Positions 7,326-13,807 of a stretch of 64,000 bases of DNA are shown piece after piece; the stretch's first letter is position 1, and each line of letters opens with the position of its first letter. The position numbers and the translations under genes are program-made. The notes beneath the pieces were generated by a model. The model was not told the origin of the DNA and made no database searches. It was given only the letters and a program-made list of their open reading frames with translations. This DNA is from Fibrobacter sp. (GTDB lineage: Bacteria > Fibrobacterota > Fibrobacteria > Fibrobacterales > Fibrobacteraceae): NCBI GenBank assembly GCA_017412605.1, contig JAFPWY010000010.1, forward strand, positions 124,001 through 188,000, in the 5' to 3' direction.

Positions 7326-8609
7326 TTAAATTGCTGCAAAGCCGTTTTCAAGGTCGGCGATGATGTCTTCGTAGTGTTCCGTACCGATAGACACGCGGAT
7401 CGTTGCCGGAGTGATTCCGGCTGCAGCCAATTCTTCCGGAGAGAGTTCCGAATGCGTGGTGGTGTACGGGTGAATCACGAGGCTCTTCACGTCGGCGACG
7501 TTGGCAAGCAGGCTGAAGATCTTCAGGCTATCGATGAACTTGAAGGCTTCTTCCTGGCCACCCTTGATGTCGAAGGTGAAAATAGAACCGCCGCCATTCG
7601 GGAAGTACTTCTGGTAAAGCTTGTGGTCAGGATGGTTTTCGAAGCTCGGATGGCTCACGCGGGTAACCTTCGGGTGCTTGGAAAGGAATTCCAGGACCTT
7701 CTTGGTGTTTTCGACATGGCGATCGAGGCGGAGCGAAAGCGTTTCGACACCCTGCAACAGGAGGAATGCGTTGAACGGGGAAATGGCAGCGCCTTCGTCG
7801 CGGAGGAGAATCGTACGCACGTAGATGGCGTAGGCAGCAGCGCCGGCGGCCACAAACGGGAAACCGTAGCTCGGGTTCTTCTCGGTGAACTGCGGAAACT
7901 TGCCACTCTTGGTCCAGTCGAACTTACCGCTATCCACGATGACACCGCCGAGGGTCGTGCCGTGACCGCCGATGAACTTGGTCGCGGAATGCACCACGAT
8001 GTCGGCACCGTGTTCAATCGGGCGAATCAGGTACGGAGTACCGAAGGTGTTGTCGATGACCAGAGGAATCTTGTTCTTGTGAGCGATTTCGGCGATAGCG
8101 TCGATATCCGGAATGTCGGAATGCGGGTTGCCGAGAGTTTCGATAAAGATGAGCTTCGTGTTGCTCTTGACTGCGGCTTCAACGCTCTTGAGGTCGTGAG
8201 TGTCGACGAAGGTCGATTCAATACCGAAGTCACGGAGTGTGTGCTGCAACAGGTTGAAAGTACCACCGTAAACCGTGCGCTGGACAACTACGTGGTCTCC
8301 GCTGCGGGCAAGAGCCGTAACAGCGTAAGTGATAGCGGCGGCACCGGAAGCAACAGCGAGAGCGGCAACGCCACCTTCGAGGGCCGCGATACGTTCTTCG
8401 AGAACACCCTGAGTGCTGTTGTTGATACGGCCATAGACGTTACCACCTGCCTTCAGGGCAAAACGGTCTGCTGCGTCCTGGGAGTTGTGGAAAACGTAGG
8501 AGGTGGTCTGGTAAATAGGAACCGCGCGGGAATCGGTTGCGGGGTCTGCCTGTTCCTGGCCAACATGGAGCTGAAGAGTTTCAAAATGGAGCTTGTTCTG
8601 AGTCGTCAT
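7326..8609 (-). CDS. metY: O-acetylhomoserine sulfhydrylase
   Basis: This PLP enzyme makes homocysteine from O-acetylhomoserine and sulfide, the direct sulfhydrylation route to methionine. The 427-residue length and opening ([11 protein letters not shown] ... YQTTSYVF) are typical of Met[11 protein letters not shown] and the PLP lysine in [12 protein letters not shown] are present. The ATG at 8609 has AAAGGA upstream. A leader of about 240 bases with its own small frame and alternative hairpins precedes it, and its promoter resembles that of the cystathionine operon at 12.3 kb. Confidence 0.93.
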
Positions 8610-8846
8610 GATTAAAATTCCTTTTAGGTTGTAGCGGGCAACCGGGTCTAAAGAGACCCGTGCTCGCGATATTTGGTTTTGGAGATATCCTTAGGCTTAA
8701 TTTTTCTAACCTGCGAAGCCTTAAGGACAAAGGCTTCCGGCTAGTTCGTTTTCAGAATGCCTCTCGGCATTCGACAGTCACTTATCATATGCGCTCCTTC
8801 GAATGCTTAGGGTTCGCAAACCATTTTGTTATCCCTATCAATCTTG
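8610..8846 (-). promoter_or_regulatory. structured mRNA leader of metY
   Basis: Between the inferred transcription start and metY lie several strong RNA hairpins (plus coordinates): GAATGCC/GGCATTC (8755-8772), GAAGCCTT/AAGGCTTC (8715-8737), CGGGTCT/AGACCCG (8643-8660) and GGTTG/CAACC (8627-8643). The segment 8715-8726 can instead pair with CCTTAGGCTT at 8689-8698, so the second hairpin and this alternative exclude each other. No hairpin is followed by a T-run, so control may act on translation or through another termination mechanism. A 15-codon frame overlaps the first hairpin. I do not see the conserved core of SAM-I. Confidence 0.6.
8741..8788 (-). CDS. possible 15-residue leader peptide of metY
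   Basis: An ATG at 8788, with a strong GAAGGAG site five to six bases upstream, opens a frame MISDCRMPRGILKTN that ends in TAG at 8741. It contains one Cys and an internal Met, and its codons 6-12 form the first hairpin of the leader. Translation would therefore melt that hairpin and shift folding downstream. It is too short to judge as a protein; the good binding site and position are the evidence. Confidence 0.5.
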   Translation of the reverse strand: MISDCRMPRGILKTN

Positions 8847-8853
8847 TAGGAAA
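8831..8853. promoter_or_regulatory. imperfect palindrome at the metY transcription start, shared with the cystathionine operon
   Basis: ATCCCTA (8831-8837) and TAGGAAA (8847-8853) flank a 9-bp spacer just after the -10 box. The same arms, spacing and position occur at 12308-12330. It may be a repressor operator for both sulfur transcription units. Confidence 0.6.
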
Positions 8854-8854
8854 G

Positions 8855-8883
8855 AAGATAGAATAAGATTTTGCCCCTGTCAA
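8855..8883 (-). promoter_or_regulatory. sigma-70 type promoter of metY
   Basis: On the minus strand TTGACA (8883-8878), a 17-base spacer and TATCTT (8860-8855). Transcription should start near 8848. Confidence 0.8.
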
Positions 8884-9977: not shown

Positions 9978-10003
9978 AAAAAAACTCCACCAAACTGGTG
10001 GAG
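9978..10003 (-). terminator. intrinsic terminator of the cystathionine operon
   Basis: CTCCACCA and TGGTGGAG form a perfect 8-bp stem (9985-10003), followed on the minus strand by seven T. It lies 35 bp past the stop codon of the cystathionine synthase gene. Confidence 0.85.
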
Positions 10004-10038
10004 CCTTGAAGGTATATGGCAAATTCGATTAGGAAAGT

Positions 10039-10950
10039 TTATTCGTACAGTCCTTTGCTGAAGTAACGGTCGCCGCGGTCGGGGGCGACAAATACGATGT
10101 TTCCACGCGCGCCCGAAGCAATGAGCTTCTTCGCCGCCGCAAATGCCGCACCAGACGATGACCCTGCAAATATACCTTCTTTTTGCGCAAGTTCACGGGA
10201 ACCGGTAAAGGCGTCGTCATCGTTGATTTTGATGACTTTGTCCACGAGCGACATATCCATGGTGTCGGCGATAAAGTCGTTGCCGATTCCTTCGATGTTG
10301 TAGTCGCCGTGTTCTCCGCCGCCCATGGTAGAGCCGATAGGGTCCGCAAGCACGCCTTGGATTTTCGGGTTACGTTCCTTGAGCGCCTTTAAGATGCCGC
10401 TGTAGGTGCCTCCGCTCCCTGCGCCCGCCACAACGTAATCCACGTGACCATCGAGATCGTCATAGATTTCGGGGCCGGTGGTTTCGTAATGGGCAAGCGG
10501 GTTGGCCATGTTGTGGAATTGCCTGAGCGAAATGGAATCCGGAATCTGCTTCAGGAGTTCCTCGGCCTTCTTTTCGGCACCGAGCATTCCCTCTTCGCGC
10601 GGGGTGTTGATGAGCTCTGCCCCGAGTGCGCGCAAGAGCGTCTGCTTTTCTTGCGAGAACTTGGTGGGCACCACGAATATCACGCGTACGCCGCGGTTGA
10701 GCGCCGCGAATGCGATTCCGAGGCCGGTGTTGCCCGCGGTCGCTTCGATGATGGTTCCGCCCGGCTTGAGCGTTCCCTTCGCGAGTGCGTCGTTCACCAT
10801 GTAAAGGCCGGTGCGGTCCTTCACGCTGCCCGAGGGGTTCCAGAGTTCAAGTTTCACAAACAGGTTCACGCCTTCGGGCACTCCGACATGCGTAAGCTTC
10901 ACAAGCGGGGTCTTCCCGATCAGGGACTGCATCGATTCATAGTATTTCAT
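10039..10950 (-). CDS. mccA: cysteine synthase / cystathionine beta-synthase family PLP enzyme
   Basis: The 303-residue fold-type II PLP enzyme has NPSGSVKDRTG with the PLP lysine near residue 44, TAGNTGLGIA (pyridine/phosphate loop) and GAGSGGTYSG. The TAGNTG wording and the neighbour, a cystathionine lyase-family gene 12 bp upstream, resemble the Bacillus mccA-mccB pair, which turns homocysteine into cysteine by way of cystathionine. Plain O-acetylserine sulfhydrylase (CysK/CysM) activity is the alternative. It is the second gene of the operon controlled by the Cys leader peptide at 12246-12302, which fits a product of cysteine. Confidence 0.8.
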   Translation of the reverse strand: MKYYESMQSLIGKTPLVKLTHVGVPEGVNLFVKLELWNPSGSVKDRTGLYMVNDALAKGTLKPGGTIIEATAGNTGLGIAFAALNRGVRVIFVVPTKFSQEKQTLLRALGAELINTPREEGMLGAEKKAEELLKQIPDSISLRQFHNMANPLAHYETTGPEIYDDLDGHVDYVVAGAGSGGTYSGILKALKERNPKIQGVLADPIGSTMGGGEHGDYNIEGIGNDFIADTMDMSLVDKVIKINDDDAFTGSRELAQKEGIFAGSSSGAAFAAAKKLIASGARGNIVFVAPDRGDRYFSKGLYE

Positions 10951-10962
10951 AAAAACCTCTTT

Positions 10963-12120
10963 TTATGCTTTCGCGGCGTTAATGCCGGCGTTCAAATCCA
11001 GGATGATGTCATCCACCTTCTCGATACCCACGGACAGGCGAATCAGCCCGTCGGTAATGCCCACCTTCTCGCGAATTTCCTTTGGGATGGAGGCGTGGGT
11101 CATTGTGGCCGGATGGCATACGAGGCTTTCGACGCCGCCCAAACTTTCGGCCAGCGAAATCAACTTGAGGCCCTTGAAAAACTTCTTGATGTCGTAACCT
11201 TCGTATAGCTCGAACGAAATCATGGCGCCGCCGTTCTTGGCCTGCTTCTTGTTGATTTCGTAACCCTGCGCGTTCGGAAGGCCCGGATAGTAGACATGCT
11301 TTACGGCTTCGTGCTGTTCCAGGTAGCGGGCAATGCGTTCCGCATTTTCGGTATGGCGATCGAGGCGTACGCCAAGAGTCTTGATGCCGCGAATCAGGAG
11401 GAAAGAATCGAAGGGGCCGAGCACCGCACCGACGGCATTCTGCGTGAATGCGAGCCTTTCAGCAATCTCTTTGTTGTTCGTCACCGCGAGGCCCGCCACC
11501 AAGTCGCTGTGGCCACCCAAATACTTTGTCGCGGAATGCACCACGATATCAGCGCCAAGTTCCAGCGGACGCTGCAGATAGGGAGTCATGAAGGTGTTAT
11601 CGACAATCGTCAAGATGCCATGCTTCTTCGCAATCGCGGCGACGCCAGCCAAGTCCGTCACAGTCAGGAGCGGGTTCGCCGGGCTTTCCACAAAGAACGC
11701 CTTCACATCGGGAGTCACCTTGGTATCGAGCGACACCAAGTCGGTGGTATCTTCGATAGAATAAGTGATGCCGAGATTTTTGAATACTTTGTCCAAAACG
11801 CGGAAAGTGCCGCCGTACACATTGCTCGAGATAATAATCTTGTCGCCCTTGTTAAAAAGCGCAAGCACTGTGGAGGTGGCCGCCATACCGCTTGCAAACG
11901 CAAAGCCCGCGACACCGCCCTCGAGTTCTGCAATCAGCGCCTCGAGCGCCGCGCGCGTCGGGTTACCCGTGCGGGAATATTCCCAGCCCGTATTTTCACC
12001 CAGACCCGCCTGCTTATAGGTAGAAGTCTGGTAAATAGGTACATTGACCGCTCCCGTGACCTTGTCGCCATCGATGCCGCCGTGAATGAGTTTCGTTTCG
12101 ATATAGTTGGAAATTGACAT
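10963..12120 (-). CDS. mccB: cystathionine gamma-lyase / gamma-synthase family protein
   Basis: The 385-residue Cys/Met-metabolism PLP enzyme has WEYSRTGNPTR, SNVYGGTF and the PLP lysine in VHSATKYLGGHSD. The frame opens at 12141, but the ATG at 12120 follows AAAGGA with 8-base spacing and gives the family start MSISNYIETKLIHGG. Lyase and synthase members are hard to separate by eye; lyase is favoured by the downstream cystathionine-synthase-like gene and by the cysteine-responsive-looking leader. Together the two genes would run homocysteine to cysteine. Confidence 0.85.
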   Translation of the reverse strand: MSISNYIETKLIHGGIDGDKVTGAVNVPIYQTSTYKQAGLGENTGWEYSRTGNPTRAALEALIAELEGGVAGFAFASGMAATSTVLALFNKGDKIIISSNVYGGTFRVLDKVFKNLGITYSIEDTTDLVSLDTKVTPDVKAFFVESPANPLLTVTDLAGVAAIAKKHGILTIVDNTFMTPYLQRPLELGADIVVHSATKYLGGHSDLVAGLAVTNNKEIAERLAFTQNAVGAVLGPFDSFLLIRGIKTLGVRLDRHTENAERIARYLEQHEAVKHVYYPGLPNAQGYEINKKQAKNGGAMISFELYEGYDIKKFFKGLKLISLAESLGGVESLVCHPATMTHASIPKEIREKVGITDGLIRLSVGIEKVDDIILDLNAGINAAKA

Positions 12121-12177: not shown

Positions 12178-12208
12178 AAAAAAATCCCGCTCAAACGATT
12201 GAGCGGGA
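12178..12208 (-). terminator. leader terminator (attenuator) of the cystathionine operon
   Basis: A perfect 10-bp stem (12185-12194 with 12199-12208, loop of four) is followed on the minus strand by seven T. It lies before the first gene of the operon, so it must be bypassed for expression. Confidence 0.88.
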
Positions 12209-12259
12209 ACTTGTTTAGAGCTTAGTTAAATCAATAGCCTAAAAACTAGTCGCCCGCTC
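12201..12259 (-). promoter_or_regulatory. candidate antiterminator
   Basis: GAGCGGG at the end of the leader-peptide gene (12253-12259, read on minus) is complementary to CCCGCTC, the 5' arm of the terminator (12201-12207). Between them TTTAGGCT and AGCTCTAAA (12214-12243) form a further helix that would bring the two together. The antiterminator and terminator therefore cannot coexist. Confidence 0.7.
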
Positions 12260-12302
12260 GACATCGACACCAACAACAAGAAGAAGAGTAGATAAGCATC
12301 AT
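12246..12302 (-). CDS. cysteine-rich leader peptide
   Basis: An ATG at 12302 with AGGAAA upstream opens an 18-codon frame, MMLIYSSSCCWCRCRAGD, ending in TAG at 12246. Four of six consecutive codons (9, 10, 12, 14) are TGT for Cys, and the last codons contain the antiterminator strand. A ribosome waiting for Cys-tRNA at codon 9 or 10 would leave that strand free and allow readthrough. A ribosome reaching the stop codon would cover it and let the terminator form. The peptide precedes genes inferred to make cysteine, as expected for attenuation. Confidence 0.8.
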   Translation of the reverse strand: MMLIYSSSCCWCRCRAGD

Positions 12303-12307
12303 GTTTG

Positions 12308-12330
12308 TTTCCTATGATTTTTGTAGGAAA
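12308..12330. promoter_or_regulatory. perfect palindrome at the transcription start of the cystathionine operon
   Basis: TTTCCTA (12308-12314) and TAGGAAA (12324-12330) flank 9 bp and overlap the -10 box. The same element stands before metY at 8831-8853. Confidence 0.65.
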
Positions 12331-12356
12331 ATAGATAAAAAAATGTATTCCGTCAA
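12328..12356 (-). promoter_or_regulatory. promoter of the cystathionine operon
   Basis: On the minus strand TTGACG (12356-12351), 17 bases, TATTTT (12333-12328). The leader peptide begins about 20 bases after the expected start of transcription. Confidence 0.75.
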
Positions 12357-12463: not shown

Positions 12464-13807
12464 TTAAAATTTCTGTCGTTTGATGTTGTAGAAATAGATT
12501 CCCATAATGACCGCAATCGTGATGACCCAGCTGACGGGGTAGACGACCATCAGCGAGGCGAACGAGTTGTATTTGGGGAATACGAAAATTACCCAGAGGA
12601 TGCGGATGCCGCAGACGCCCACCATGCAGGTAAGCGCCGGAGGCAAGGATTTGCCCATTCCCGAAAGCGCGCCCGAAAATACGTCCAGAAAAACGTTGAT
12701 GGCCAAGAGCCCCACCACCACGTACATGCGGATGGATGCGATTTCGATGATCTCGGTATTGGACGTGAATACGCTCAGCATGGGCCTTGCGAAAATGCAG
12801 CAGAGCGCGCTCAATACGATGGTGGAGGAGCTGCCGAGCAGAAGCGTCCAGCGGACCGTGCGGCGGCAGCGTTCCATGTTCTTTGCGCCGAAGTTCTGCC
12901 CCACGAAGGTCACGCAAGCCTGCGAGAATGAACTCAGCCAGTAATACACCACGAATTCGTAATTCAGGGCGATGGATGAAGCCGCCACCGTAGCAGAACC
13001 GAGGCTGTTGATGGCCGACTGCAAACACACATTGCTGAACGAGAATACGACGCCTCGGAGTCCCGTCGGGAGCCCAACGCGCAAGATGCGGCTCAAGAAG
13101 AGGGGCGTCACGCGCAACTTCCAGAATTCCAGCTTGAAGGGCCCCACCTCGTGCAAGAGCATGTAGAACAAGGTAATCCCGCTGATGGTATTGGCAATGA
13201 CCGTTGCAATCGCCACGCCAGCAACACCCATGTCAAAGCCCGCCACCAGAACCAGGTTCAGCGCCACATTGACTGCTCCCGCCACCATGAGCACGTAGAG
13301 AGGCCGCTTTGTATCGCCCTTGCTGCGCAGGATGGCGGAGACAAAGTTGTAAATCATTACAAAGGGCATCCCCGCAAAGTAGATTTGCAGGTAAAGTACC
13401 GCCATGTCCAAAACGTCTTCGGGTGTCGAAATCAGTTCAAGAATCGGCCTTGCAAAAAAGATTCCCACGAACGAGAGGAATATCCCGCTGAAGAACGCCA
13501 CCATCACCGACGTGTGGACGCTGCGGGTCACGGAGCGATAGCTGTGAGCGCCGATGGAATTGGCCACCACCACGTTCGCGCCCACGGAAATCCCGACGAA
13601 CAGGTTGATGAGCATGTTGATGACGAACGTGTTCGCACCCACGGCCGCCAAGGCCTTGTCGCCCGCGAACTGCCCCACCACGGCGACATCCGCCAAGTTG
13701 AACATCTGCTGGAAAATGCTGCTCAAGGCAATAGGGATGGCAAACCTCAGGATCTTTCTCCCGAGGGGCCCGTTCAGCATATCTATGTTCGTCTTTGACA
13801 CGCCCAT
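12464..13807 (-). CDS. MATE family multidrug/solute exporter
   Basis: The 447-residue inner-membrane protein has about twelve hydrophobic segments and the MATE opening (NGPLGRKILRFAIPIALSSIFQQMFNLADVAVVGQFAG). The second half repeats the pattern (LGSATVAASSIALNYEF, FVGQNFGAKN). Members export cationic drugs or metabolites using a sodium or proton gradient; the substrate is not readable. No terminator is obvious downstream; the 3' flank runs into the promoter region of the cystathionine operon on the same strand. Confidence 0.9.
   Translation of the reverse strand: MGVSKTNIDMLNGPLGRKILRFAIPIALSSIFQQMFNLADVAVVGQFAGDKALAAVGANTFVINMLINLFVGISVGANVVVANSIGAHSYRSVTRSVHTSVMVAFFSGIFLSFVGIFFARPILELISTPEDVLDMAVLYLQIYFAGMPFVMIYNFVSAILRSKGDTKRPLYVLMVAGAVNVALNLVLVAGFDMGVAGVAIATVIANTISGITLFYMLLHEVGPFKLEFWKLRVTPLFLSRILRVGLPTGLRGVVFSFSNVCLQSAINSLGSATVAASSIALNYEFVVYYWLSSFSQACVTFVGQNFGAKNMERCRRTVRWTLLLGSSSTIVLSALCCIFARPMLSVFTSNTEIIEIASIRMYVVVGLLAINVFLDVFSGALSGMGKSLPPALTCMVGVCGIRILWVIFVFPKYNSFASLMVVYPVSWVITIAVIMGIYFYNIKRQKF

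Follow-up and report, generated by a model that had tools for sequence, protein, structure and literature searches.

A putative ribosome-mediated cysteine attenuator preceding the mccB-cbs operon of Fibrobacter

Does a short leader ahead of the cystathionine genes mccB and cbs tie their transcription to the supply of cysteine, and by what means could it do so? We have studied this question in a window of 64,000 nucleotides (the whole stretch of DNA that was analysed), which belongs to a Fibrobacter genome; its near relatives also bear the name Fibrobacter. The features on which the argument is built all lie on the minus strand:

12328..12356, minus strand: promoter of the sigma-70 type, with TTGACG (12356-12351), a 17-nt spacer and TATTTT (12333-12328)
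12310..12313, minus strand: Shine-Dalgarno sequence AGGA, 7 nt 5' of the first leader ATG
12246..12302, minus strand: leader frame MMLIYSSSCCWCRCRAGD, 18 codons and TAG (ATG 12302-12300, TAG 12248-12246); frame and Cys codons conserved
12261..12278, minus strand: control region, TGT codons 9, 10, 12 and 14; in constrained folding, stalls at the first of these expose the antiterminator strand
12243..12259, minus strand: 5' strand of the antiterminator, GAGCGGG (12259-12253), then GACT and GTTT; from folds and pair counts
12201..12216, minus strand: 3' strand of the antiterminator, AAAC, AGTT and CCCGCTC, overlapping the terminator 5' arm; from folds and pair counts
12178..12208, minus strand: intrinsic terminator, 10-bp stem, TCGT loop and T7; 94.6% of cells paired in 39 sequences
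10963..12120, minus strand: mccB, PLP enzyme of the cystathionine gamma-lyase/synthase family, first gene of the operon (ATG at 12120); from NCBIfam and Pfam scans
10039..10950, minus strand: cbs/mccA, PLP enzyme of the cysteine synthase / cystathionine beta-synthase family, second gene; order conserved in relatives
9981..10007, minus strand: terminator-like hairpin closing the mccB-cbs operon; from a pattern scan

The promoter, the Shine-Dalgarno (SD) site, the 18-codon frame with its four TGT codons, the GAGCGGG motif and the 10-bp terminator with its T-run, which a first-pass annotation of the window had read as a cysteine attenuator, are all present in the sequence. In the window copy the four TGT codons fall within six codons (9, 10, 12 and 14), and the terminator reads TCCCGCTCAA-TCGT-TTGAGCGGGA at 12208-12185, followed by T7 at 12184-12178. 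Promoter-like and terminator-like sites identified by pattern scan alone are no more numerous than in shuffled sequence, and the significance of the element therefore rests on its conservation. The choice of cysteine as the signal fits the genes that would be controlled, which family scans identify as cysteine genes; for both mccB and cbs the assignment is at the level of the family and does not fix the exact reaction, as neither reaches a curated NCBIfam cut-off among the families shown.

Just 3' of the -10 box there is also a CCTA-(8 to 11 nt)-TAGG motif (12326-12310 in the window, minus strand), which overlaps the SD (TAGGAA). The same motif is found at the 5' ends of Fibrobacter transcripts unrelated to one another (L055, L056, L090 and the metY leader); it may represent a 5' hairpin, or a signal for initiation, used throughout the genus.

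Conservation and coding of the leader

We have read the upstream regions of 52 close orthologues of mccB (approximately 90% protein identity or more) from genomes of the same genus. The leader element was found in 51 of them, yielding 44 distinct sequences of what we call the type I leader; the 51 include two mccB copies preceded by a different, type II, leader described below. In the remaining case (L024) the element was not found in the 198 nt available between a contig edge and mccB, where there is a different hairpin. In most relatives the promoter position is occupied by TTGACA/G-17-TATATT, and every leader frame of either type (44 of type I, 21 of type II) is followed by an intrinsic terminator, a hairpin that ends in a T-rich tail. 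A model of the type I leader matches 50 of the 80 genomes of the genus, among them a few with weaker matches to type II leaders or with chance matches. Two genomes (G071 and G072) each contain two type I leader-mccB copies on different contigs, reflecting either mixed bins or real duplicates.

The leader is absent before distant homologues of mccB (48-64% identity) and in other genera, whose mccB homologues are without it; in two genomes of genus g6, mccB is directly preceded by metY. Neither an exact-core scan of 168 Fibrobacterota genomes nor model searches of the genus and family produced a genuine element outside Fibrobacter. The one exact-core match outside the genus (L058) is a chance match, antisense inside a long frame resembling the small subunit of glutamate synthase, and a contig labelled Clostridiales Firm_16 (L123, LVAV01000030.1), which has mccB-cbs with the leader, carries genes 91-95% identical to those of Fibrobacter and is probably misbinned. 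Three weak model matches that were opened (L197, L199, L200; E in the range 0.0006 to 0.008) are ordinary hairpins without a Cys leader, and a whole-genome pattern scan for runs of Cys codons was discarded, as it returned hundreds of chance matches. The Cys leader has no match in Rfam; since no Rfam family covers these leaders, annotation probably misses them.

The evidence that the short frame is coding comes from the comparison of its copies. The Cys codons share one frame in all 44 distinct leaders, with 3 to 6 of them in each, and at least two adjacent Cys codons are in the frame of CGA TGT in every leader; the N-termini vary freely. From the first Cys codon to CGATGT the leaders differ in length by 3, 6 or 9 nt, all multiples of three, while the differences 3' of the stop codon are not. 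The stop is a TAG 18 nt past the CGA in 38 leaders, a TGA at 6 nt in five and a TAA at 0 nt in one; in every lineage the antiterminator strand is within reach of a ribosome that terminates there. The ratio of TGT to TGC is 172:19 in the leaders (90% TGT), versus 54:178 (23% TGT) in the genes of the window, for which 41 large frames serve as codon reference; Cys accounts for 1.3% of window codons. Part of the TGT bias may derive from constraint on CGATGT. The choice of a particular synonymous codon in attenuators has been discussed by Elf and Ehrenberg (PMC1183508).

The CGATGT hexamer itself (Arg-Cys codons, 12266-12261 in the window) is nearly invariant in both leader types, being altered only in L026. 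It lies outside the core of the antiterminator, which a ribosome stalled at this point would cover; the hexamer may have a role in the protector or in slowing release at the stop codon.

Alternative pairings and the proposed mechanism

When all RNA from the first Cys codons on is left free to pair, the leader end folds onto the 5' arm of the terminator in all 44 leaders. In the window copy the pairing of GAGCGGG with CCCGCTC, which the first-pass annotation had noticed and which is retained in relatives, is extended by GACT/AGTT and GTTT/AAAC; the further helix it had placed at 12214-12243 also appears in the folds, where it becomes continuous with the GAGCGGG/CCCGCTC pairing, as one long antiterminator stem, when a ribosome occupies the early codons. 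Constrained folding was carried out on the RNA as it is before the terminator 3' arm is made, since the equilibrium of the full-length RNA did not separate the states: there the terminator often or usually wins even with a stalled ribosome, and in most sequences stalled and finished ribosomes are not told apart. With a ribosome footprint assumed to extend 12 nt beyond the start of the A-site codon, the mean probability of the antiterminator over the 44 leaders is 0.79 when the ribosome stands at the first Cys codon, 0.01 when it stands at the stop codon, and 0.75 in its absence. In the model folds, at least, this reproduces the switching logic of the first-pass annotation, by which a stall would free GAGCGGG and a ribosome at the stop codon would cover it. 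Because the terminator wins at full-length equilibrium, the switch must be kinetic, set by the order of synthesis; that this order decides the outcome in attenuators is generally accepted.

Pair counts were made in 39 type I sequences, leaving out the two most divergent leaders, which were misaligned by MAFFT. The antiterminator is 88.5% paired, against 63% at best in slid versions, with a mismatch at one core pair in 21 of the 39 sequences, and within this set no covariation beyond that of shuffles was found for it; the terminator, besides its high level of pairing, has one exchanged pair and weak covariation. When the leader end was shuffled, p was below 0.02 in only 6 of the 44 leaders. In L023 and L039, where GAG replaces GGG, the antiterminator is re-formed in a shifted register, and compensation is seen both in these lineages and between type I and type II. 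Overall, type I pairing is a matter of conservation with a few adjustments, not of strong covariation. The comparison of mccB upstream regions that the first-pass annotation had put forward as a check thus bears it out as regards the Cys frame, found in every readable close orthologue except L024 at its contig edge, and the retention of both pairings, but yields few compensatory changes within the main group. As far as strong pairings are concerned, its claim of a single anti-structure is correct in the window copy; weak local protectors are possible in type I (hairpins of -4 to -10 kcal/mol, with the antiterminator still favoured), and type II has a real protector. Since type I is without a strong protector, readthrough is predicted when its leader is not translated (P 0.75).

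From the sequence comparisons and the folding models together, we consider it very probable that a ribosome-mediated, cysteine-specific transcription attenuator controls the mccB-cbs operon. The basis of this reading is observed: the parts, their conservation, the reading frame, the bias toward the rarer codon, and the mutually exclusive pairings. The features of an attenuator found here are a Cys-rich leader frame, tested for enrichment and coding conservation, a terminator between this frame and the first gene, and an antiterminator that excludes the terminator and becomes inaccessible when the ribosome is at the stop codon but not when it is at the control codons, the antiterminator only for folding before the 3' arm is made. 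According to the scheme, RNA polymerase would start near 12325 and make the leader, with a ribosome following. With enough charged tRNA-Cys, the ribosome would reach the stop codon and cover GAGCGGGCGAC; CCCGCTC would then pair with its 3' arm, and transcription would end at 12178. With Cys-tRNA in short supply, the ribosome would stall at the first TGT codons, and GAGCGGG...GTTT would stay free to pair with AAAC...CCCGCTC before the terminator 3' arm is made; the antiterminated polymerase would read into mccB and cbs, whose products would turn homocysteine into cysteine. Translation of the frame, stalling, the efficiency of termination and the direction of the response are the elements of this scheme that we infer.

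The hairpin might instead be the plain terminator of a MATE transporter gene, which in the window is found upstream, also on the minus strand, with its end at 12464, and the short frame a chance open frame of a kind that is common enough, another frame of the same stretch being open in 25 of the 44 leaders. However, the MATE gene is upstream only in the window and in one close relative, whereas promoter, SD, leader and terminator stay with mccB elsewhere: because the neighbour is not conserved while these parts persist, the terminator belongs to the mccB-cbs operon. The conservation of the Cys codons, frame, SD and promoter, and the occurrence of a second Cys leader before other genes, also argue against this explanation, which we regard as highly improbable.

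Translational or Rho-dependent attenuation, with a minor role for the hairpin, is another possibility; it has been proposed for mycobacterial cysteine operons. The polycysteine leaders that precede cys operons of Mycobacterium and Propionibacterium have no conserved terminator hairpins, and Rho has been suggested there (PMC1262725); mycobacterial cysteine genes have been reported to be under translation attenuation (PMC13236596); and one type II clade has a broken T-run (GCGGGCGTTTCTTATG). We nonetheless judge it unlikely for Fibrobacter, where hairpin and T-rich tail are present in 44 of 44 type I and 21 of 21 type II leaders, with the terminator 5' arm being the partner of the antiterminator in each one, and where the mccB start, about 58 nt 3' of the T-run, is not involved in any predicted stem. 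The nucleotide conservation of CGATGT and CTAGTTTTTAGGC, which persists even where the leader frame stops earlier, could also point to a riboswitch-like RNA that binds a ligand or protein directly, with the Cys codons as a by-product. To this we give very little credence, as the RNA has no Rfam match, the number of in-frame Cys codons varies from 3 to 6 with TGT and TGC interchanging, and type II has nothing beyond the Cys codons, CGATGT and the logic of pairing in common with type I.

A second leader type and its methyltransferase genes

Other weak matches to the type I model (E 0.0006 to 0.008) led to the type II leader, a frame of 15 codons (...CC...RC and a stop; for example, MNIQFANICCLSGRC and a stop). 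A model of this leader identified 21 copies among 111 genomes of the family, all in the genus Fibrobacter and all with their Cys codons in frame. In 19 cases the gene that follows encodes an LCM-domain methyltransferase (PF04072, E 7e-38), and in two it is mccB. The two leader types have in common only the CC codons, CGATGT and the logic of pairing, which in type II involves CGGGCG and CGCCCG. In the 17 distinct sequences antiterminator and terminator are 100% paired, and a protector, in which codons after CC pair with the antiterminator strand, has 8 pairs, 97.8% paired, with A-U/G-C exchange in seven. Over the 21 leaders, the probability of the antiterminator is 0.96 with a stalled ribosome, 0.00 with the ribosome at the stop codon and, on average, 0.63 without a ribosome. 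As a ribosome stalled at the last Cys codon covers the antiterminator, only the early Cys codons can be regulatory in type II. In the clade with the interrupted T-run the tail contains TTTCTT.

Of the 20 LCM orthologues with readable upstream sequence, 19 carry a type II leader, the exception being that of G039, in whose readable upstream sequence the leader was not found. A paralogue (42-46% identity) lies directly 3' of cbs in G057, G022, G067 and G046. In G061 (L251, G061:C257) the paralogue is directly behind a type I leader, which lies within the 300 bases before the gene, with a remnant of the mccB start in between; apparently mccB and cbs were deleted here and the attenuator was retained. 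The genome of the window has the paralogue on another contig, without a leader. The recurrence of Cys leaders at mccB, cbs and the methyltransferase is further support for what would be a shared signal.

A comparable grouping is known from Bacillus subtilis, where the yrrT-mtnN-mccA-mccB operon combines a SAM methyltransferase gene with mccA and mccB, which make cysteine from methionine, under the repressor CymR. Fibrobacter likewise groups a methyltransferase with mccA and mccB but, unlike B. subtilis with its CymR, places putative Cys attenuators before mccB-cbs and before the methyltransferase gene. By analogy, the methyltransferase may supply SAM-derived homocysteine, and the leader predicts a role in cysteine supply for an LCM-domain enzyme of unknown substrate. 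We put at about even the chances that there is a cysteine regulon based on attenuation, in which two interchangeable leader types jointly induce mccB, cbs and LCM-type SAM methyltransferases, and which would be the first Cys attenuator to be described with a complete intrinsic terminator-antiterminator switch and the first such regulon in the phylum. If this is true, LCM methyltransferases would feed SAM-derived homocysteine into cysteine.

Known leaders and a neighbouring metY leader

Leader-peptide attenuation itself is textbook knowledge. As in the trp, his, leu and thr attenuators of E. coli, a short frame in which the amino acid made by the pathway is heavily represented is followed by an intrinsic terminator, antiterminator and terminator compete for one strand, and synonymous codons are biased (PMC1183508). 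Unlike these, the Fibrobacter leader would sense cysteine, has a strand of the antiterminator inside the last leader codons and, in type I, is without a strong protector. In the actinobacterial polycysteine leaders (PMC1262725; Canestrari et al. 2020, as cited in PMC13236596), too, Cys codons follow one another in a short frame, near its stop codon, ahead of cysteine genes; in Bifidobacterium longum the gene regulated is cbs, of the same kind as here. The Fibrobacter leaders differ from them in that each has an SD, whereas mycobacterial Cys leaders are described as leaderless, as well as an intrinsic terminator and an antiterminator to match it, and in that they belong to a different phylum. 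The Fibrobacter leader therefore works in part like the actinobacterial ones and is not to be classified with them, given its conserved terminator.

Among open-access papers we found none that describes a Cys leader in Fibrobacter; those known come from Actinobacteria and have been reported to be without terminators. The occurrence of what is probably a complete Cys attenuator in a rumen phylum so distant from these suggests that the device arises repeatedly. In bacteria that degrade fibre in the rumen, the leader would also make it easy to read out whether cysteine or sulfur is limiting.

A separate observation concerns metY (7326-8609), which has a conserved structured 5' leader (8605-8870 in the window, minus strand), aligned from Fibrobacter and genus g6, with no match in Rfam even at E 10. 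It contains a mini-frame, MVCEP and a stop, and a second frame, MISDCRMPRGILKTN and a stop, with a conserved SD, AAGGAGCGC. A hairpin GAATGCC-GNRA-GGCATTC has a 5' strand that can pair instead with the upstream GCATTCGA, and the loop GTCCTT of a later hairpin pairs with a downstream AAGGAT to form a pseudoknot. Of the cells of the metY leader 96.6% are paired, and its covariation score is above those of all 500 shuffles. It is a candidate for a new riboswitch or arrest-peptide leader, and possibly more novel than the Cys attenuator.
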